From: a virus
IMG/VR virus record: IMGVR_UViG_3300010885_004570
Span: 1 to 26,700 of that record
Direction: 5' to 3' (one strand)
Length of the DNA: 26,700 nucleotides
This document shows positions 3,064 to 26,114 of the stretch, in pieces. Positions within the stretch are counted from its first letter, which is position 1, and every line of letters starts with the position of its first letter. Both the position numbers and the translations under genes were made by a program. The notes beneath the pieces are model-generated. The model did not search any database, was not told where the DNA came from, and worked only from the letters and a program-made list of their open reading frames with translations.

Positions 3064-4354
3064 AAGTAAGAACATCTTGAGCTTGACTTTTTTGTGAAGT
3101 TGTTGGTGATCCAATCTTAAACTTTGTAGAGAATATTTCGACTAATTTGTTAAAGTCCTCAGCAGGGTCTATCATAAAGAATTTTCCTGGACCTGAAATT
3201 GCTATAAAGTAATCAAAGTGTGGAGTTCCAGTGTTAGCTCCAGCGTATATATAAAACTCGAATGCTGCTAATCTTTGATAGAATTGAGGACCTACACTAC
3301 CATCAGCTTCAACTGCTGGATCTACTACTAGGCTCTTAATGTCAGCTGCAGATGATGATTTATACACTTTAGCTAGTGCACTAGCCCAAATATCTTTTAT
3401 TACCTCTAACGTTGTGTTGTTCTCTCTAAGCAACCTTTCGAAGGCCACGAAAGCCCAACTGTCAGTTTTTTTGAGATAGTATATGTTCTCGTTAGATTTA
3501 GCTCGTAGATCTAGGATGTCTGCAGGAATTGATGATTGTTGTGGATCCTCTGCTTGACGTATATCACTACCACCTCCAAACAACTGATTTATCCGTACAG
3601 TCATATATTTTGCAACATCGTTTCCAGATCCTATCTTCTCTTGACTTCTAAGACGGAAACCAGATCTAATCTTCGTTGCCTTCACTTCAAGCTTAACATC
3701 ACCCACCATAACATCCGCTGCTTCTCCTCCTCGAGGTGATCTTCCTCCTTCAAGAAATAATCGCAAAAACATTTCATAGCGTCCCATTTTTACAGAAGTA
3801 TACGGAACTAAGTCTGCTACGTACTGCATGAAATCCTTAGACACTCCGGTCTTGTCAACCACATCAAAAAGATTACCTTCACCCATCTGTACTAGGGTAT
3901 TAATGGAGATCAAACCTCCTGGTTCTGTTAATATTTTTTGAAGTTGTTTATAAGAATTAGTTTCTGCAGCTTCCCTAAATATAAGCTTAGAATCGACAGC
4001 TGTGAAGTTCTTTAATTCGGATAGAGATTTCATTACACTATCGCTAGTCTGCTTTGCATCGACTATTCTAAATACCTGCAATAAATCTGATTGCTCTAAG
4101 TTAGCTGCTTTAAGTGTGCTGATTAGGGTTTCAAGAGTAATGTCTGTAGGAGTTTCAGATGCCTCCTCTCTTACTGGAGTAGGAGCTTTCTTTGTAAAGT
4201 CTGGCATCTCATTGATTCCATTCTCAGCTAGAACCTCTTGTAATACTTTTAATTCACTCTTGACTGTAAACTTACCATTCTTCATGGTAGGAAAGCCTTT
4301 TGGTAATCTATACGACCACTCAGCTATAATATCGTCCCAATTTATATTTTTCAT
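3032..4354 (-). CDS. 440-aa protein with possible PD-(D/E)XK nuclease core
   Basis: The N-terminal about 50 residues (INWDDIIAEWSYRLPKGFPTMKNGKFTVKSELKVL) form a compact Trp/Tyr-rich segment. I have the impression of similar N-termini in other marine phage proteins, without a known function. A helical middle follows. Residues about 190-230 then read GRYE194, GGRSPRGGEAAD214, and LE223-V-K225-AT. A helix Glu, a strand Asp and E-x-K at this spacing are the layout of PD-(D/E)XK nucleases. This is suggestive, since the family is short on sequence identity. V-L-A-E-N at 41-45 could be a prohead-protease site. The C-terminus VELKEDYLL is duplicated out of context at 2088-2112. The gene lies between the ligase-like gene (19-nt gap) and pair A. 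It could instead be a structural protein with a chance motif. Confidence 0.65.
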   Translation of the reverse strand: MKNINWDDIIAEWSYRLPKGFPTMKNGKFTVKSELKVLQEVLAENGINEMPDFTKKAPTPVREEASETPTDITLETLISTLKAANLEQSDLLQVFRIVDAKQTSDSVMKSLSELKNFTAVDSKLIFREAAETNSYKQLQKILTEPGGLISINTLVQMGEGNLFDVVDKTGVSKDFMQYVADLVPYTSVKMGRYEMFLRLFLEGGRSPRGGEAADVMVGDVKLEVKATKIRSGFRLRSQEKIGSGNDVAKYMTVRINQLFGGGSDIRQAEDPQQSSIPADILDLRAKSNENIYYLKKTDSWAFVAFERLLRENNTTLEVIKDIWASALAKVYKSSSAADIKSLVVDPAVEADGSVGPQFYQRLAAFEFYIYAGANTGTPHFDYFIAISGPGKFFMIDPAEDFNKLVEIFSTKFKIGSPTTSQKSQAQDVLTSVELKEDYLL

Positions 4355-18953: not shown

Positions 18954-21659
18954 TTATCTTACGTTTGATGTATTAAGACCTAGTCGAATTATTTCTCCAA
19001 CCTTTCTACCATCCATATTAACTTCACCACCTTTAGATGCAACTGCAATTAGTTGATCTAACTTATCTGCTATAACTTGCATCTTATCTTCTTCACCTTT
19101 TCCACCACCACCCATCAATCCTGATAGTGCTGGTGCAACTGCTGCTAATCCTATTAACGCTCCGATGATCGGTAACGCCATTAATCCACTCAATGACATT
19201 AGGCTTAAGCCTCCTGCAATTCCTACTAAGGATGCTCCAACTAATGCTAAACCTGGACCTGCTGCTCCTAATGCAGATAAGCTTTCAGCTAGTGATCCAA
19301 GAGCGTTCATCTGTGCTATTTGGTTTACTATTGTTAATCCCGGTATCATTAGAGCTAATCCAGCTGCTGCTAACATAAGCCCTGGAAAAGCGAAGTATGA
19401 TGCTACTCCGAGTGATAGTAAACCTGCTCCCAATACTCCCAAACTTATTCCTACCGGAATTAGTATCATCCAATTATCTGCAAATACTTGGAATATCTTA
19501 ACAAACGCATCTGCAATTGCTCCTATAAGAACTGCCATTCCTTCGAACACTGCAGTGATTACTGTTCCAAATGCCTCAATGACTGGAGCTAATAAACTTA
19601 GTGCAAATGTCAATGGAATCAATGCTGCACCAAATGCTGCTAGTAGGAGTACTCCTAACCATGTCATCGGGTCAGCCGCAGCCTGACCTAGACTAGACAA
19701 TCCTTGAGAAACTCCTTTCATATTCATTGCAAATCCAACTCCAATTCCAGGTATTGCTAATAAGAATATAGTAGGAAGTCCTAAGAGCATTGCTGCCAAG
19801 CCTATTCCGACTGGTATCAATGCTAGTGCTCCTAGTACAACTTTTCCATTAGCAAATTCTTTTAATCCCTCTGCTACATCTTTAAATGTTGATGCAATTC
19901 CTCCCTTTCCAGGTTTAATACTATTAGCTTTGTCTGCTGCTCCTGCAGCTCCTTCTGTTGCTTTACTTGCTAAATCAGCTCCAACACCGGCTGCACCTGC
20001 TCCTGCCTTTGCTGCTCCACCACCCATTCCTAGGGCAGATTGAGCTTTTACCCAAAGCATGTGTGCTTTTTCTTTTACCCAGTGTGCTGATTCCATTGCA
20101 AAGATTGCAGCTTTTTTGAGACCGCCATCAACTAAAAATTGTGTACCTGACAATATCAATTCTGCATTTTCTTTCATGAATCCAACTGCGGCTCCTCCGT
20201 ACTCCACTACACTTCCTAAGGCTTTATCAGCTAAACTAGCTCCTTCTCCAAAGTATTTATTAGACTCCTCCTGAGCATCAATTGATTTTTGTAATTCTTC
20301 TACAGACATTCCAGTAGCCTCAGCTAGTGCTTTTTTCTGCATTACATTCATCTTTTCGAACTCAGCTGAACCTCCTATGTTCTTTAGTACCTCAGCGGTG
20401 GATCCTGCTAAGTCACCACTCATTGCTAATTCTCTAGCTTTGTCTAAGTTAATCTCTCTACCTAATAGCACAGATGCTTCCATCTGCTTATTAATACTAC
20501 TTTCAAAGTCTAATAGACCATCAGCCATTTTTGCTGCTGTACCTATTTCAACTCCCATTTTATGTAATTCAATTGCTGCTTTACCAAATCCTTCTGCGCC
20601 ACCCTTACTGTAAAGTGCCATTGCTCCGGTATTCTTTGCCATATCAGCAAATACCTTACTACCTGCAATTCCTTGAGCTTCTGCTAAGTGTGCAGTATGC
20701 TCCATTGCTTTGGCTGCTGATTCTGAAGTCTCTCCACCCATTTGGGATAGAGATGCATTAAGTTTCATGGCTTCTTGACCTGAGATACCGAGATGGTGTG
20801 CCATTGATCCAAGCTCGTTTACAGTCTCACTACTCAATGCATTCACGTTACCAAACTCCTCAACGACTCCTTCCATAACACCTTTGGTGTCTGAAAGACC
20901 TAACATGGACTCAAAAGATATTCCTTTGAATTGAGCTGAAACCGCTTGTCCAGCACTAAGTCCCATCTTACGGAAACCTTCAAAACTTTCAACTGCTTTA
21001 TCTAGCTTTTTTATTACAGCATCAGCAAAGAGTGCTTTTGCCATTTCCGGTGTGCGTAGTTGATCTAACAACTCATCAGTGATTCCTATACGAGCTTTAA
21101 GGTTTGCATTTATTTCTTTAAACTTCTCATTTACCTCATCCTGCTGCTTATTTAGCTTGTCTTCTTGCTCTTGTTGTTTTAGTTTTTTGTCTAGTAAGTT
21201 TTTGCTAATTGTTAACTCGACATTTTCAGCCATTAGGCCATTAACAACCTCTTGTGATAGCTGCACTCGCTCTTTGTAAGAGTTAGCAAGATCGACATTA
21301 CCAGCTTGCTCCGCTTGAAGACGTAAGATCTCCGTTTCTTGCATTATAAGCTTTTCTGTCAGAATAGCTTGATTATTCTTATTCTTCTGCTGTTCTACAG
21401 CTACTTGTACCTGAGCTCGCTCTAAAGATATACCCTTAGCGAGGGACTTGTTTAAAACTTCAGCCTGAAATGCATCCTTCTTTCTCATTTCAGCAATTTC
21501 ATCTAGGCGATCTTTCATCTCCCCTAGTAGGTCAGCTCCTCCAAAGGACTTCTTTCCTTTATTGGCACCTTGCTGCATACCCGCAGTGACTGCGTCAGCT
21601 ATCTGTTTAGTTAGATTCTGAAACTCACTTGGATCAATATTTAGCTTATTGTCGGCCAT
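18954..21659 (-). CDS. tail tape measure protein, 901 aa
   Basis: Sets tail tube length and is ejected with the DNA. Features are standard: a long N-terminal Gln/Glu/Lys coiled-coil region (about 60-200), a central Ala/Gly/Met-rich helical part, and a Gly/Ala linker (about 550-590). Several strongly hydrophobic membrane-like segments follow (about 600-860, e.g. VVLGALALIPVGIGLAAMLLGL and PMTWLGVLLLAAFGAALIPLTFALSLL). The end is amphipathic (EEDKMQVIADKLDQLIAVASKGG). At the roughly 0.15 nm per residue known for tape measures, 901 residues predict a tail of about 130-140 nm. The reverse complement of the alanine-rich region is also open over 500 bases, but only as a composition effect. It follows the gp26-like chaperone and the 110-aa gene. 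Confidence 0.92.
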   Translation of the reverse strand: MADNKLNIDPSEFQNLTKQIADAVTAGMQQGANKGKKSFGGADLLGEMKDRLDEIAEMRKKDAFQAEVLNKSLAKGISLERAQVQVAVEQQKNKNNQAILTEKLIMQETEILRLQAEQAGNVDLANSYKERVQLSQEVVNGLMAENVELTISKNLLDKKLKQQEQEDKLNKQQDEVNEKFKEINANLKARIGITDELLDQLRTPEMAKALFADAVIKKLDKAVESFEGFRKMGLSAGQAVSAQFKGISFESMLGLSDTKGVMEGVVEEFGNVNALSSETVNELGSMAHHLGISGQEAMKLNASLSQMGGETSESAAKAMEHTAHLAEAQGIAGSKVFADMAKNTGAMALYSKGGAEGFGKAAIELHKMGVEIGTAAKMADGLLDFESSINKQMEASVLLGREINLDKARELAMSGDLAGSTAEVLKNIGGSAEFEKMNVMQKKALAEATGMSVEELQKSIDAQEESNKYFGEGASLADKALGSVVEYGGAAVGFMKENAELILSGTQFLVDGGLKKAAIFAMESAHWVKEKAHMLWVKAQSALGMGGGAAKAGAGAAGVGADLASKATEGAAGAADKANSIKPGKGGIASTFKDVAEGLKEFANGKVVLGALALIPVGIGLAAMLLGLPTIFLLAIPGIGVGFAMNMKGVSQGLSSLGQAAADPMTWLGVLLLAAFGAALIPLTFALSLLAPVIEAFGTVITAVFEGMAVLIGAIADAFVKIFQVFADNWMILIPVGISLGVLGAGLLSLGVASYFAFPGLMLAAAGLALMIPGLTIVNQIAQMNALGSLAESLSALGAAGPGLALVGASLVGIAGGLSLMSLSGLMALPIIGALIGLAAVAPALSGLMGGGGKGEEDKMQVIADKLDQLIAVASKGGEVNMDGRKVGEIIRLGLNTSNVR

Positions 21660-22023: not shown

Positions 22024-22054
22024 AGAAAAAGAAAGCCAACGCTTGGTTGGCTTA
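22024..22054 (-). terminator. rho-independent terminator after the short chaperone frame
   Basis: On the minus strand AGCCAAC-CAAGC-GTTGGCT forms a perfect 7-bp stem with a 5-nt loop, followed by TTCTTTTT. It overlaps the stop codon of the 22052 frame, so the chaperone unit ends here and the tape-measure unit starts just after. Confidence 0.8.
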
Positions 22055-22237
22055 TCTTCTTGATTTAGATCTTATTTCAGCGGCTTGCTTTTCTTCTGCC
22101 TCGTTTTCTTTCTTCCGAATGTCTGCTAGTTTTAGATAGAAGTACTTTCTTAAGTGGACTGGAAGACAATACAATTCAGTATAGGTCCATCCCATTTTTC
22201 CGTAATACATCAGATCGAATATCTGATCTTGCATCAT
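22052..22237 (-). CDS. small tail-assembly protein (or C-terminal frameshift extension of the gp26-like chaperone)
   Basis: The coding part reads MMQDQIFDLMYYGKMGWTYTELYCLPVHLRKYFYLKLADIRKKENEAEEKQ. It ends in a basic Arg/Lys/Ser tail. The pattern Y-x-x-x-Y-x-L-P-V-x-L-R-x-Y/F-x-x-x-x-L resembles the C-terminal part of baseplate/tail chaperones next to tape measures. The frame is open back to 22345, overlapping the end of the 291-aa gene in the +1 phase. The first in-frame Met clear of the overlap is at 22237, 11 nt beyond the upstream stop, with no Shine-Dalgarno. It is therefore either reinitiated after the gp26-like gene or fused to it by a +1 (or -2) frameshift at the T7 run 22262-22268. 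The fusion would be about 356 aa. T4 has gp51 at the comparable place. Confidence 0.68.
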   Translation of the reverse strand: MMQDQIFDLMYYGKMGWTYTELYCLPVHLRKYFYLKLADIRKKENEAEEKQAAEIRSKSRR

Positions 22238-22268
22238 GGGTCTATAACTAGACCCCAGGCCAAAAAAA
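22238..22268 (-). promoter_or_regulatory. candidate programmed ribosomal frameshift site with stem-loop
   Basis: Coding strand: codons GGG TTT TTT TGG (T7 run at 22262-22268), a 6-nt spacer, then a perfect 7-bp hairpin GGGTCTA-GTTA-TAGACCC (22238-22255) that includes the zero-frame TAG stop. The next frame is +1. A Phe-tRNA on TTT re-pairs perfectly after a +1 slip. This is the usual geometry of a recoding signal, at the usual place (just before a tape measure). A homopolymer-length error would look the same. Confidence 0.55.
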
Positions 22269-23123
22269 CCCCACACCAATGGGCAAAGCCATCTTTTCTT
22301 GTTCAAACTGACAATGAGGACACTCAAAACCAAATGTCGTATCAATATCTGGAGTAACTTCTTTTAGGTACTTACGCAATTCCAAAGAGTCACGTGATAG
22401 CATACTATCAACAAACTTATTGATAACTCCTTTATCTTCGTTCCCATCAACAGCTATAATTATATGCTTCAATCGTGTAGATAGTTCTGGATCAATTCCT
22501 GATACCTTACTTAATTTTTTATATCCTTTTACTGCCTCTTCAATCTTTTTCTCATCTCCGTGAGTTAAGAATTTTAAAATAAGTTTATTTTTACCAATTG
22601 GTAGTTCAAATGTGTGAGTAGTTTGTCCTTTTACAAAGCCATCCCAATTAATCCCTTTATCATCGAACTCACCTAAGTCAATACTATGTTTAGATTTTTC
22701 TCCACAACTTGGACAAGCAATCTCTACTTCATAGTCTTTACCATAAGCTAAGATACGAGCTGCAATAAAGATTGCATTCTTGTCTACCGTAAGTAAATCG
22801 TTGTAGTTGATCTTAGTAACAATAAGTGCTTGTAGCAGCTTATCAATTACTACCCCTTGTTTAATAAGGTTTTGAGAAGAAAGAATATCCTCTTCTTTTG
22901 CAGTCATGTACTTCATCTCAATCTTTCCTTCCGAAAGTGGATGTCCTTCTGGGTAGAACCAACCTTTTGATGGTAGTTCAATTACTTCAGTAGGTACAAT
23001 TGATGGAGTTGATACAGTCTCTAGAGTTCCAGTGTTAATGGACTCAGCCATAAACTTGGCTTTGATTTCTTCGTCTGTGAGCATCTTTCCTGCTGGATAC
23101 TCATCATTTAAAACTTTTGACAT
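22248..23123 (-). CDS. gp26: gp26-like baseplate/tail assembly chaperone with zinc ribbon, 291 aa
   Basis: Residues 46-130 match the T4-type baseplate (gp26) domain as I know it: IELPSKGWFYPEGHPLSEGKIEMKYMTAKEEDILSSQNLIKQGVVIDKLL...IFIAARILAYGKDY. Two Cys pairs, C137-x2-C140 and C268-x2-C271, probably form one zinc site. A Lys/Glu-rich helical region lies between them. The final residues are MALPIGVGFFWPGV before TAG. The coding end carries a slippery T7 run and hairpin that could switch translation into the next frame. Its transcription unit starts with a TATTTATA site 33 nt upstream, right behind the tail-tube terminator. The protein is expected in the infected cell during assembly, not necessarily in the virion. 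Confidence 0.8.
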   Translation of the reverse strand: MSKVLNDEYPAGKMLTDEEIKAKFMAESINTGTLETVSTPSIVPTEVIELPSKGWFYPEGHPLSEGKIEMKYMTAKEEDILSSQNLIKQGVVIDKLLQALIVTKINYNDLLTVDKNAIFIAARILAYGKDYEVEIACPSCGEKSKHSIDLGEFDDKGINWDGFVKGQTTHTFELPIGKNKLILKFLTHGDEKKIEEAVKGYKKLSKVSGIDPELSTRLKHIIIAVDGNEDKGVINKFVDSMLSRDSLELRKYLKEVTPDIDTTFGFECPHCQFEQEKMALPIGVGFFWPGV

Positions 23124-23227: not shown

Positions 23228-23716
23228 TTAGTATTCTAGTACGCAGTAATCAACTCCTAATGTTAAAGATACCTCAACTGGTGTCTCTGTTGACCAGTCC
23301 ATATCTCCAAACGTTGCTGTTTTGATATATGCACCTTTGATTTTCCAGTTCTCTACTTTATCACCTACCGGTCCAAGTACGAATATATCAAAATCTCTTT
23401 TGTAGAAATCTGCATATCCATCACGACCTGTTACTGATTCGTGAGCTACACGTACCCACTCCATTACTGATTGTGCTCCTGATGGTACGATTGCGTCGTA
23501 CATAGAGATTGTAATGTCATTCCACTTACATTTTCCTTTCATCTTGCGGATAATGTTAATGTGGTCTAAAACTACTTCTCCACACTCAATACCTGGACGA
23601 GACACTTTCTTACATAAGAATGCTGGAATGCCTTCTACAGATAAGATGAATCTATTCTGTACCTTTGGTTCGTAAGGTGTGTAGAAGATTTCGTTGTTTT
23701 CAATTAAATTTGCCAT
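23228..23716 (-). CDS. gp19: tail tube protein, T4 gp19-like
   Basis: 162 aa, the same size as T4 gp19 (163 aa). The fold markers are VQNRFILSVEGIPAFLCKKVSRPGIECGEVVLDHINIIRKMKGKCKWNDITISMYDAIVPSGAQSV in the first half and WKIKGAYIKTATFGDMDWSTETPVEVSLTLGVDYC at the end. They match the tube fold: the R-F-x-L-x-(V/I)-x-G-(I/V)-P start and the (W/F)-x-(L/I)-x-G-(A/C)-(W/Y/F)-(I/V) and D-(M/L)-(D/S)-(W/Y)-x-x-x-x-P-(V/I)-x-(I/V) closing strands. Subunits stack as hexamer rings inside the sheath. It lies 19 nt after the sheath gene, the T4 order 18-19, and ends before a strong terminator. Confidence 0.95.
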   Translation of the reverse strand: MANLIENNEIFYTPYEPKVQNRFILSVEGIPAFLCKKVSRPGIECGEVVLDHINIIRKMKGKCKWNDITISMYDAIVPSGAQSVMEWVRVAHESVTGRDGYADFYKRDFDIFVLGPVGDKVENWKIKGAYIKTATFGDMDWSTETPVEVSLTLGVDYCVLEY

Positions 23717-23735: not shown

Positions 23736-26114
23736 TTAAGCGTTATCAAAAGTTGCTCCAGTAGGAAGGATATTAAAGTCTAATACGATAAATTCTGCTG
23801 CTTTTGCTGGTTGTAAGTAAATCTGACCGTACATGATGTTTCTGTCGATTACATCAGGAGTGTTATTTGTCTCATCCATGATTACACGGAAAGCATACAA
23901 TCCTTGACGAGATTTAACAGTCTCTAAGTATGGTGTTACGATGTTTAAGAATCTCTGACGAGTAGTTGTTGTATTGTTTTCAAATACTAAATAACGACTT
24001 GAAGATGCAATAAACTTTTTCAATGTGATTAGCAAACGACGTACGTTGATTCTATCTAATGCTGATGGTTTAGCTTGTAGTGTTTTTTGACCCCAGATAC
24101 ATACTCCTTGGTTAGGGAATGTTGCAATTGCGTTTACTTTATTTTCATAAAGGTCATTTCGTTGCGCTTGGTTCAATCTCAACTCTACATCAACTGCTTC
24201 AGATACACCTCCACGGTTTAGACCTGCTGGTGCAAACCATTCGTATGCTACTGAATCATTGTATGCCATTACACGCGGTACAACAACACTTGGTGGTACC
24301 CATACCGGTTTATTTTTATCTGTATCAATGATCTTAACCCAAGGCCAGTAAGTACCTACATAGTTTGAATCAATTCCTGAGTCAACTACTGCTGCAACTG
24401 CTGCTGCTACAGAACCTCCTTGTGTGATAGGATCTGCTAATACAAATGCATCTCCACGGTCTTCTGCTACTTCGATTGCTTTGTTGATAATAGCTGAGTG
24501 ATCTTTAATTGTTGCTCCTGGAGTAACTATTAAGTTGATATCATACTCATCTGCGTTTGCAATTGTATTAAGAGCTTTTATGTAAGCTGCTCCACCTGCA
24601 GTTGTTGCAGAACTACAATTCATTCCAAATAAGTTGGTTGGTGTAGCGTAAGCTCCAACATTCTTAGCGATTGCTGGATCCATTCCGTCAAATCCACCTT
24701 GTAATGGGACATTGAATTTAAGTACGTTATTTACATCTAGTCCTACAAATACAGAAGCTGAAACACTTGAACCTCCTACGAATGTAGAGTTAGCGTTTGC
24801 TTTAGATGCACTTGGGTGAACAAAACATTCATCTAAGTTAAATCCAGTTCCAAGTTGTACTGTTCCTTTAGCTAAAGGCTTTAAGAAGTTAGCATTATCG
24901 TTTGAGTTATAATCCCATCCGTAATAAGCCTTCCTATTAAAAGATCCGTTAATTTGTGTTAACTGACTTACTACAGAAGCTGTTGGCATTGAATAACTAG
25001 AAGATATTGGTTGAATTAAAGCTTCAAATCCAAATGGCTTAACATTTGCACTAATTGCCTTATTCTGCACATCGTCCGTTACATCAATACGAATATATTT
25101 TGATACATTATTATAGTCACCAATTCTAGTTACTACTCCACTTGCATCTACTGTGAATGATCTGTCACCAATTCTTCTTATAATGTAGTTAGCTGAATCT
25201 GGATTCAAATTTAGGTTTGTATAAGATTCAAGAATGATAGGTCTTTGATCGGTGTCATTGTAGTCACGAACCAACAAAGTAAATGAACCATAGTCTGATC
25301 CTGGATCTGATCCTGGAAGTAACGTATTAAGTATACTAATCTTGTAAGAAGTGTTAGTATCTGTTCCGTCTGCTAATGATATTACTTTGAAAAGTTGTAA
25401 TTTGTTACCTCCAATAATTTGTGATGTAATATAAGGAGTTGTAGCTGGTGCATAGTTTCCATATGCAGAGCTTGAGTAATCCACAAAAGCTGTAGTTGAT
25501 CCTGTATCAAAGCTAACAGATCCTGATAAACCTGCAGTTGTTGCTAAGAAGTCACTGAAGTAGGTGTATACATATCCTTTGTTAGCTCCTTTCACAGATG
25601 TACCTAATACATTTGTAAATGAATCCACACTTGCTGGGTTAGCAGATGCTGTTAATATTTGCTGATTTGCTCCTGATCCTGATAAAAAGAATCCTTTAGA
25701 TCCAGTTACACTGATAGAAGATGTAAAATAAGATTTATCAAATCCGTTTCCAGTTGAGAATCCAAGTGCAGTAGATGGCATGATAACACCAACTAATTTA
25801 GACCCAAGTGAACTTGAGTGAATGATGTGAACTGCTTTTGCATTATATCCTCCTGAAGTAAGAACACGAACAACAGTCACAGTAGCTGCGCTGTTTAAGT
25901 AGCTCTTAACTGCATAAGGTACGTAAGTCTCTTCACTTAATCCACCAAATTTTGCAATAAAGTCATTAAAATTGTTTACCACTGTTGGTACAAACGCTGG
26001 TCCTTTCATTGTTGGTCCAACTATTGCCGCTCCAATCGCTGCAATTCCTGCAGGTAAAAACGAAAGGTCTTTCTCGTTTGTAAATACTCCTGGTGATACT
26101 ATTCTTTCGGCCAT
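23736..26114 (-). CDS. gp18: tail sheath protein, T4 gp18-like, 792 aa
   Basis: Forms the contractile outer tail. The N-terminus (MAERIVSPGVFTNEKDLSFLPAGIAAIGAAIVGPTMKGPAFVPTVVNNFNDFIAKFGG) is a standard sheath opening. The C-terminal about 200 residues have the polymerisation core: VCIWGQKTLQAKPSALDRINVRRLLITLKKFIASSSRYLVFENNTTTTRQRFLNIVTPYLETVKSRQGLYAFRV. They end with IDRNIMYGQIYLQPAKAAEFIVLDFNILPTG. At 792 residues it is larger than T4 gp18 (659). The Ser/Thr/Gly-rich middle (about 130-480) is probably an enlarged outer domain. It has a TATTTATA site 25 nt upstream and is followed by the tube gene. Confidence 0.95.
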   Translation of the reverse strand: MAERIVSPGVFTNEKDLSFLPAGIAAIGAAIVGPTMKGPAFVPTVVNNFNDFIAKFGGLSEETYVPYAVKSYLNSAATVTVVRVLTSGGYNAKAVHIIHSSSLGSKLVGVIMPSTALGFSTGNGFDKSYFTSSISVTGSKGFFLSGSGANQQILTASANPASVDSFTNVLGTSVKGANKGYVYTYFSDFLATTAGLSGSVSFDTGSTTAFVDYSSSAYGNYAPATTPYITSQIIGGNKLQLFKVISLADGTDTNTSYKISILNTLLPGSDPGSDYGSFTLLVRDYNDTDQRPIILESYTNLNLNPDSANYIIRRIGDRSFTVDASGVVTRIGDYNNVSKYIRIDVTDDVQNKAISANVKPFGFEALIQPISSSYSMPTASVVSQLTQINGSFNRKAYYGWDYNSNDNANFLKPLAKGTVQLGTGFNLDECFVHPSASKANANSTFVGGSSVSASVFVGLDVNNVLKFNVPLQGGFDGMDPAIAKNVGAYATPTNLFGMNCSSATTAGGAAYIKALNTIANADEYDINLIVTPGATIKDHSAIINKAIEVAEDRGDAFVLADPITQGGSVAAAVAAVVDSGIDSNYVGTYWPWVKIIDTDKNKPVWVPPSVVVPRVMAYNDSVAYEWFAPAGLNRGGVSEAVDVELRLNQAQRNDLYENKVNAIATFPNQGVCIWGQKTLQAKPSALDRINVRRLLITLKKFIASSSRYLVFENNTTTTRQRFLNIVTPYLETVKSRQGLYAFRVIMDETNNTPDVIDRNIMYGQIYLQPAKAAEFIVLDFNILPTGATFDNA

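Follow-up and report, generated by a model that had tools for sequence, protein, structure and literature searches.

In 2022 Vladimirov, Gautam and Davidson reportedly identified the proteins that act as tail assembly chaperones in T4-like phages (Virology 566:9-15), and they are said to name genes 26 and 51 as those of T4 itself. Frameshifting chaperones govern the meeting of tape measure and tail tube, and hence tail assembly, and most known cases shift by −1. The lambda G/GT system is the model: a single gene lying ahead of that for the tape measure gives a short and a long chaperone, the long one by a −1 frameshift, while +1 frameshifting is rare among the chaperones of long-tailed phages, HSTV-2 being very likely a +1 case (PMC5009743). 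Two papers that cite Vladimirov and colleagues describe separate short and long chaperone genes in some T4-like phages and poly-T −1 sites in others (PMC10885494, PMC12846349). Outside this group, +1 sites include CUU_UGA of prfB, which encodes RF2, and UCC_UUU_CGU of influenza PA-X (PMC10885494, PMC3498833).

The locus considered here comes from IMG/VR record IMGVR_UViG_3300010885_004570, of which positions 1-26,700 were analysed; this whole stretch of 26,700 nucleotides is hereafter called the window. On its minus strand lies a T4 gp26-like gene that had been predicted, from the letters of the window, to be fused to the next frame by a programmed +1 frameshift. I report here how this locus compares with its relatives and with the systems described above.

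Results

The genes of the window follow the order sheath, tube, chaperone, a small ORF of 110 aa and a 901-aa tape-measure-like ORF (Table 1), which is also the gene order of Flavobacterium phage immuto, where the tape measure is annotated. The gp26-like gene, whose zero-frame product is here called TAC-N, thereby occupies the place between the tail tube and tape measure genes that is expected of a frameshifted tail assembly chaperone. TAC-N matches PF12322 (T4_baseplate) with 53.8 bits (E 2.8e-14; the curated cut-off is 24.5) and phrog_150 (baseplate hub) with 1.5e-17. An AF2 model of TAC-N computed with 48 homologues reached a pLDDT of 88 and, in BFVD, matched the SP-15 protein and other T4-like hub proteins. 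Its best counterpart in the PDB was the HK97 tail assembly chaperone 2ob9 (Z 5.2, 80 residues, rmsd 4.5), a match of the predicted N-terminal domain that lies below the level regarded as safe and is suggestive only. A single-sequence AF2 model of the 356-aa fusion, with a pLDDT of 33, is meaningless, and a sequence search of solved structures returned no relative of TAC-N or of the extension, TAC-C. The best explanation of the locus is that the gene encodes the tail assembly chaperone of a contractile phage of the T4 gp26 lineage.

Table 1. Features of the chaperone locus and neighbouring tail genes (window coordinates)
Feature	Position	Strand	Evidence or remark
Tail sheath	23736..26114	-	PF04984 1.8e-13; PF17482 4.4e-13
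Tail tube protein, T4 gp19-like, upstream of TAC-N	23228..23716	-	phrog_4542 tail tube 2.1e-25
TAC-N, T4 gp26-like, 291 aa, zero frame	22248..23123	-	PF12322, phrog_150, AF2
Codons at the site: GGG; TTT; TTT; TGG	22271-22269; 22268-22266; 22265-22263; 22262-22260	-	
T7 run (TTT TTT and first base of TGG), putative +1 slippage site	22262..22268	-	TTTTTTTGGCCT invariance; broken variants elsewhere
7-bp hairpin GGGTCTA-GTTA-TAGACCC, 6 nt past the T7 run, TAG in stem and loop	22238..22255	-	
TAC-N zero-frame stop TAG	22248..22250	-	direct
TAC-C, +1-frame extension, 69 aa and stop TAA, begins GLGSSYRPMMQDQIFDLMYYGKMGWTYTELY	22052..22261	-	conserved domain; gp51 hhalign
Intrinsic-terminator-like hairpin directly 3' of the TAC-C stop	22033..22053	-	computed
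901-aa ORF in tape measure position	18954..21659	-	position and length; in immuto, same place annotated tail tape measure protein

Read directly on the minus strand, TAC-N ends with GGG TTT TTT TGG CCT GGG GTC TAG, the zero-frame stop standing four codons past TTT_TGG. No stop interrupts the +1 frame between 22363 and a TAA at 22054-22052; before the shift point it comprises 34 codons counted from the upstream stop, or 28 counted from a TTG at 22345, and past it 69 codons. The T7 run, the spacer, the hairpin with its TAG and the 28- and 69-codon stretches of the original prediction are all present in the sequence. Directly 5' of the T7 run, at 22270-22283, lies a terminator-like inverted repeat, CCCATTGGTGTGGG. 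The possibility that this repeat and the T7 run form a terminator, with the run as its tract, was rejected because the repeat is not conserved among relatives.

Three sets of relatives were compared at this site. In the first, made up of 80 IMG/VR relatives (P0001) of which 78 were readable, the +1 frame was open past the stop in all 78, whereas the −1 frame mostly closed a few codons on; the extension is in this respect not of the −1 type found in cyanophages and KVP40. The second and third sets, seeded from immuto and from a huge phage, comprised 97 loci, 95 of which showed this pattern too. The +1 arrangement of the window is also seen in two isolates, Mel-JY01 and immuto, and in a pair of MAG contigs, of which one is from Flavobacteriales. 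About 160 loci, drawn from independent assemblies, show the site and the open +1 frame with one conserved domain, so that a chance overlap is ruled out; the count overstates the number of events, since some loci share contigs and all are related and so not independent. In these relatives the second frame is conserved and continues without a stop through the end of the first ORF, and it lacks a conserved start of its own. This conserved dual frame supports the programmed +1 fusion originally predicted, TAC-NC, of about 356 aa and with the junction GVGFFGLGSS.

The extension itself behaves as a protein. Past the stop, differences distribute over the three codon positions of the +1 frame as 0.34/0.25/0.56, a pattern that indicates protein-coding constraint, that is, purifying selection, on TAC-C. 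The alignment follows the pattern GL..YRP.L..QIFDLVYYGKGGF....YNMPVWLR.FY, and its conservation begins at the motif itself (GL...), ahead of the ATG ATG that the window carries just past the stop, at TAC-C residues 9-10 (RPMM). These two ATGs are not conserved, relatives having Ile, Leu and similar residues there. Between the last upstream stop of the +1 frame and TAC-C codon 15, no ATG, GTG or TTG is found in 51 of 162 loci, which means that a separate start is not the general route to TAC-C. Furthermore, a +1-frame stop lies at most 6 nt upstream of the motif in 24 loci, so that the shift must take place at the motif or within the short stretch of codons between it and the zero-frame stop.

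TAC-C is homologous to the C-terminus of gp51. Aligned by hhalign with a profile of gp51 C-termini (P-SSM2, KVP40, PhiW-14, S-RIM8, Melnitz-1 and T4) that also took in the −1-frame extensions of Atu_ph07 and PA5oct, it gave a probability of 94.8 and an E-value of 4.9e-8. Matches to phrog_634 were weak, as were those of the 356-aa fusion aligned directly with single T4 gp26 or gp51. The two T4 proteins, gp26 and gp51, are also homologous to each other (E 9e-5).

The motif YTTYTTT GG is conserved in nearly all relatives. TTTTTTTGGCCT is invariant across 34 aligned relatives, and TTT TTT is used at 54 of 56 sites, compared with 79% use of TTT elsewhere in the gene. The variants found among relatives are TTC TTT TGG (14), TTT CTT TGG (34) and TTT CTA TGG (4), and in some relatives the A-site TGG is replaced by one of the codons TAC, TAT or TTC. 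Many relatives have T runs of only 3-4, and not the long homopolymer that transcriptional slippage would use. The zero-frame stop falls 4-12 codons past the A-site codon. One rule may cover all these variants: a peptidyl-tRNA on (U/C)UU_U or UUU_C would re-pair one base forward on UUN. Slippage on a run of seven T and a slow Trp codon in the A site had both been part of the original prediction; the run is there in the window but, given the variants in use elsewhere, is not essential, and a slow Trp codon, though possible, is not required.

Folded as RNA, the window hairpin has an energy of −12.7 kcal/mol (z −2.3). Among 34 colinear relatives its pairing is kept in 81.5% of cells, against 17-48% in slid controls. 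Two-sided changes number 24, and covariation is seen at six of the seven pairs, as in GGGTCTA/TAGACCC, GCCTCTA/TAGAGGC, GGGCCTG/CAGGCCC and GGTCTTA/TAAGGCC. The hairpin is missing in about half of 56 representatives and cannot therefore play a general part. The element singled out at the outset is therefore real in the window's clade but lineage-specific, and is likely to be a stimulator acquired in that clade or retained only there.

Other arrangements of the two domains were also seen. At loci L184 (about 2206-2530) and L189 (about 2206-2500), the TAC-C domain is a separate ORF with an ATG start just past the chaperone gene. Neither has a good shift motif, and such loss of the motif in split forms speaks for the frameshift reading. 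L189, while split, retains CTT TGG, a point that counts against it. Two bacterial loci of the phylum Bacteroidota, L202 and L203, hold at 859-1626 one continuous ORF of 255 aa with both T4_baseplate and DUF6760 domains, adjoining tail-tube-like genes; in a third locus, L201, the same two domains lie in overlapping frames. The continuous ORF is a natural single-ORF long chaperone, possibly of contractile injection systems, and its possession of both domains shows that a fused product can occur in nature. In gp26-type genes of four further phages, the +1 frame is open at TTT CAC (Bacillus phage SP-15), TTT AGT (Listeria phage LIS04), TTT CGT (Streptococcus phage SagM-GXN1) and TTT TGG (Rhodothermus phage RM378). 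The extension is annotated as a separate hypothetical with an improbable start at L082 (5857-6093), L083 (5833-5943) and L089, the RM378 locus (3701-3877).

Discussion

The comparison of relatives makes it very probable that programmed +1 frameshifting at this locus yields both TAC-N and TAC-NC. Most ribosomes would stop at the TAG and release TAC-N. In a minority, the peptidyl-tRNA-Phe on the second TTT (UUU_U) would slip +1 while TGG waits in the A site, re-pair on the overlapping UUU, and allow GGC to be read next, so that translation would run on through the 69 codons of TAC-C to give TAC-NC. The downstream hairpin, with the zero-frame stop in its loop, probably boosts the efficiency of this event in the window's clade. 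If lambda G/GT is a guide, the less abundant long product may link the tape measure protein and the tail tube. Against the frameshift, the TGG in the A site is not a stop and is not known as slow in this case.

The same extension could be reached by slippage of the polymerase on the T7 run, one U being dropped or two added, after which ordinary translation would give TAC-N-C. The run is found in the window and most close relatives, and deletion of a U leads to the correct frame. However, that frame is also reached from runs of 3-4 T, where polymerase slippage is unexpected; such broken runs argue against it and for +1 slippage of the ribosome, and a ribosome also fits better with the strictness of the zero-frame register and with the covariation of the hairpin. 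Transcriptional slippage is for these reasons very unlikely. A −2 shift of the ribosome would arrive in the same frame with one extra residue (FFFG instead of FFG), and a T run permits −2 re-pairing, but at TTC TTT TGG it would oblige tRNA-Phe to pair with UCU, whereas +1 re-pairing is good in all variants; by this reasoning a −2 shift is an even more distant prospect.

That TAC-C might be a separate gene with a weak start of its own and without any fusion, like genes 26 and 51 of T4, is suggested by the ATG ATG that the window has in the +1 frame, by the small separate coding sequences annotated in public records, and by the true split forms L184 and L189. Yet the window's ATGs are unconserved, protein conservation starts upstream of them, and nearly a third of the loci offer none of the three start codons; I consider a separate gene scarcely credible here. 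Homologues with separate genes, which the original prediction had placed on the opposing side, do exist, in the form of these two loci with their own ATG. As for a sequencing error or a recent decay that split one gene, homopolymers are error-prone, but an identical break with its motif across independent assemblies, its presence in the isolates Mel-JY01 and immuto, and the purifying selection on TAC-C leave this cause effectively refuted.

With the +1 frameshift as the preferred reading, the balance of evidence leans towards a broader proposal, that within this one chaperone family some lineages use the Phe-Phe pair for a −1 shift and others use it for a +1 shift at sense codons, (U/C)UU_U-GG, with the same kind of fused product. 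The +1 form would be that of Flavobacteria and Microcystis phages, and the frame is open in phages of Bacillus, Listeria, Streptococcus and Rhodothermus. If true, bacteria would host a widespread +1 shift that requires no stop codon and no obviously rare codon, and to which a hairpin was added in one clade. The large natural set of +1 sense-codon sites, with four motif variants and with or without hairpin, makes the rules of +1 slippage directly testable, and it suggests that a programmed shift can switch direction and still yield the same product. Annotation of such phages misses the long chaperone, TAC-C being recorded as a separate small hypothetical or as a gp51 gene.

Compared with lambda G/GT, the window likewise has short and long forms encoded ahead of the tape measure, with the shift −1 in lambda and +1 here. 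It had been supposed that T4-like phages with gp26-type proteins were not known to frameshift, and that the shift, if confirmed, would be a G/GT-like strategy moved to an unrelated chaperone. Neither supposition stands: gp26 is itself the chaperone, and a −1 form at TTT TTC or TTT TTT is visible in P-SSM2, KVP40, PhiW-14, S-RIM8, Melnitz-1, Atu_ph07 and PA5oct. The mechanism proposed for the window family resembles that of prfB and PA-X in that a P-site (C/U)UU re-pairs one base forward; CTT_T of the immuto-like relatives equals the slip codon CUU_U of prfB, and TTT_CGT of SagM-GXN1, or UUU_C, is of the PA-X type. In prfB, however, a stop occupies the A site, where the window has TGG, and no conserved Shine-Dalgarno-like element, unlike in prfB, was seen upstream of the shift motif. 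The closest likeness is to the T4-like gp26/gp51 proteins, with which the window shares PF12322, a gp51-type C-terminal extension and a Phe-Phe shift pair near the gene end. In T4 itself, 26 and 51 are two separate genes where the window has one gene and a frameshift extension, and the split of L184 and L189 into genes with their own ATG parallels T4 as a split-gene form outside it. In P-SSM2 and KVP40 the extension lies directly downstream, as in the window; cyanophages, KVP40 and PhiW-14 shift −1 at T_TTT_TTC with the stop close behind, whereas in the window the shift is +1, at TTT_TGG, and the stop comes four codons on. The strategy is thus already known in T4-like phages, and what is new, as far as the literature surveyed shows, is that these Phe-Phe codons are used for a shift in the +1 direction.
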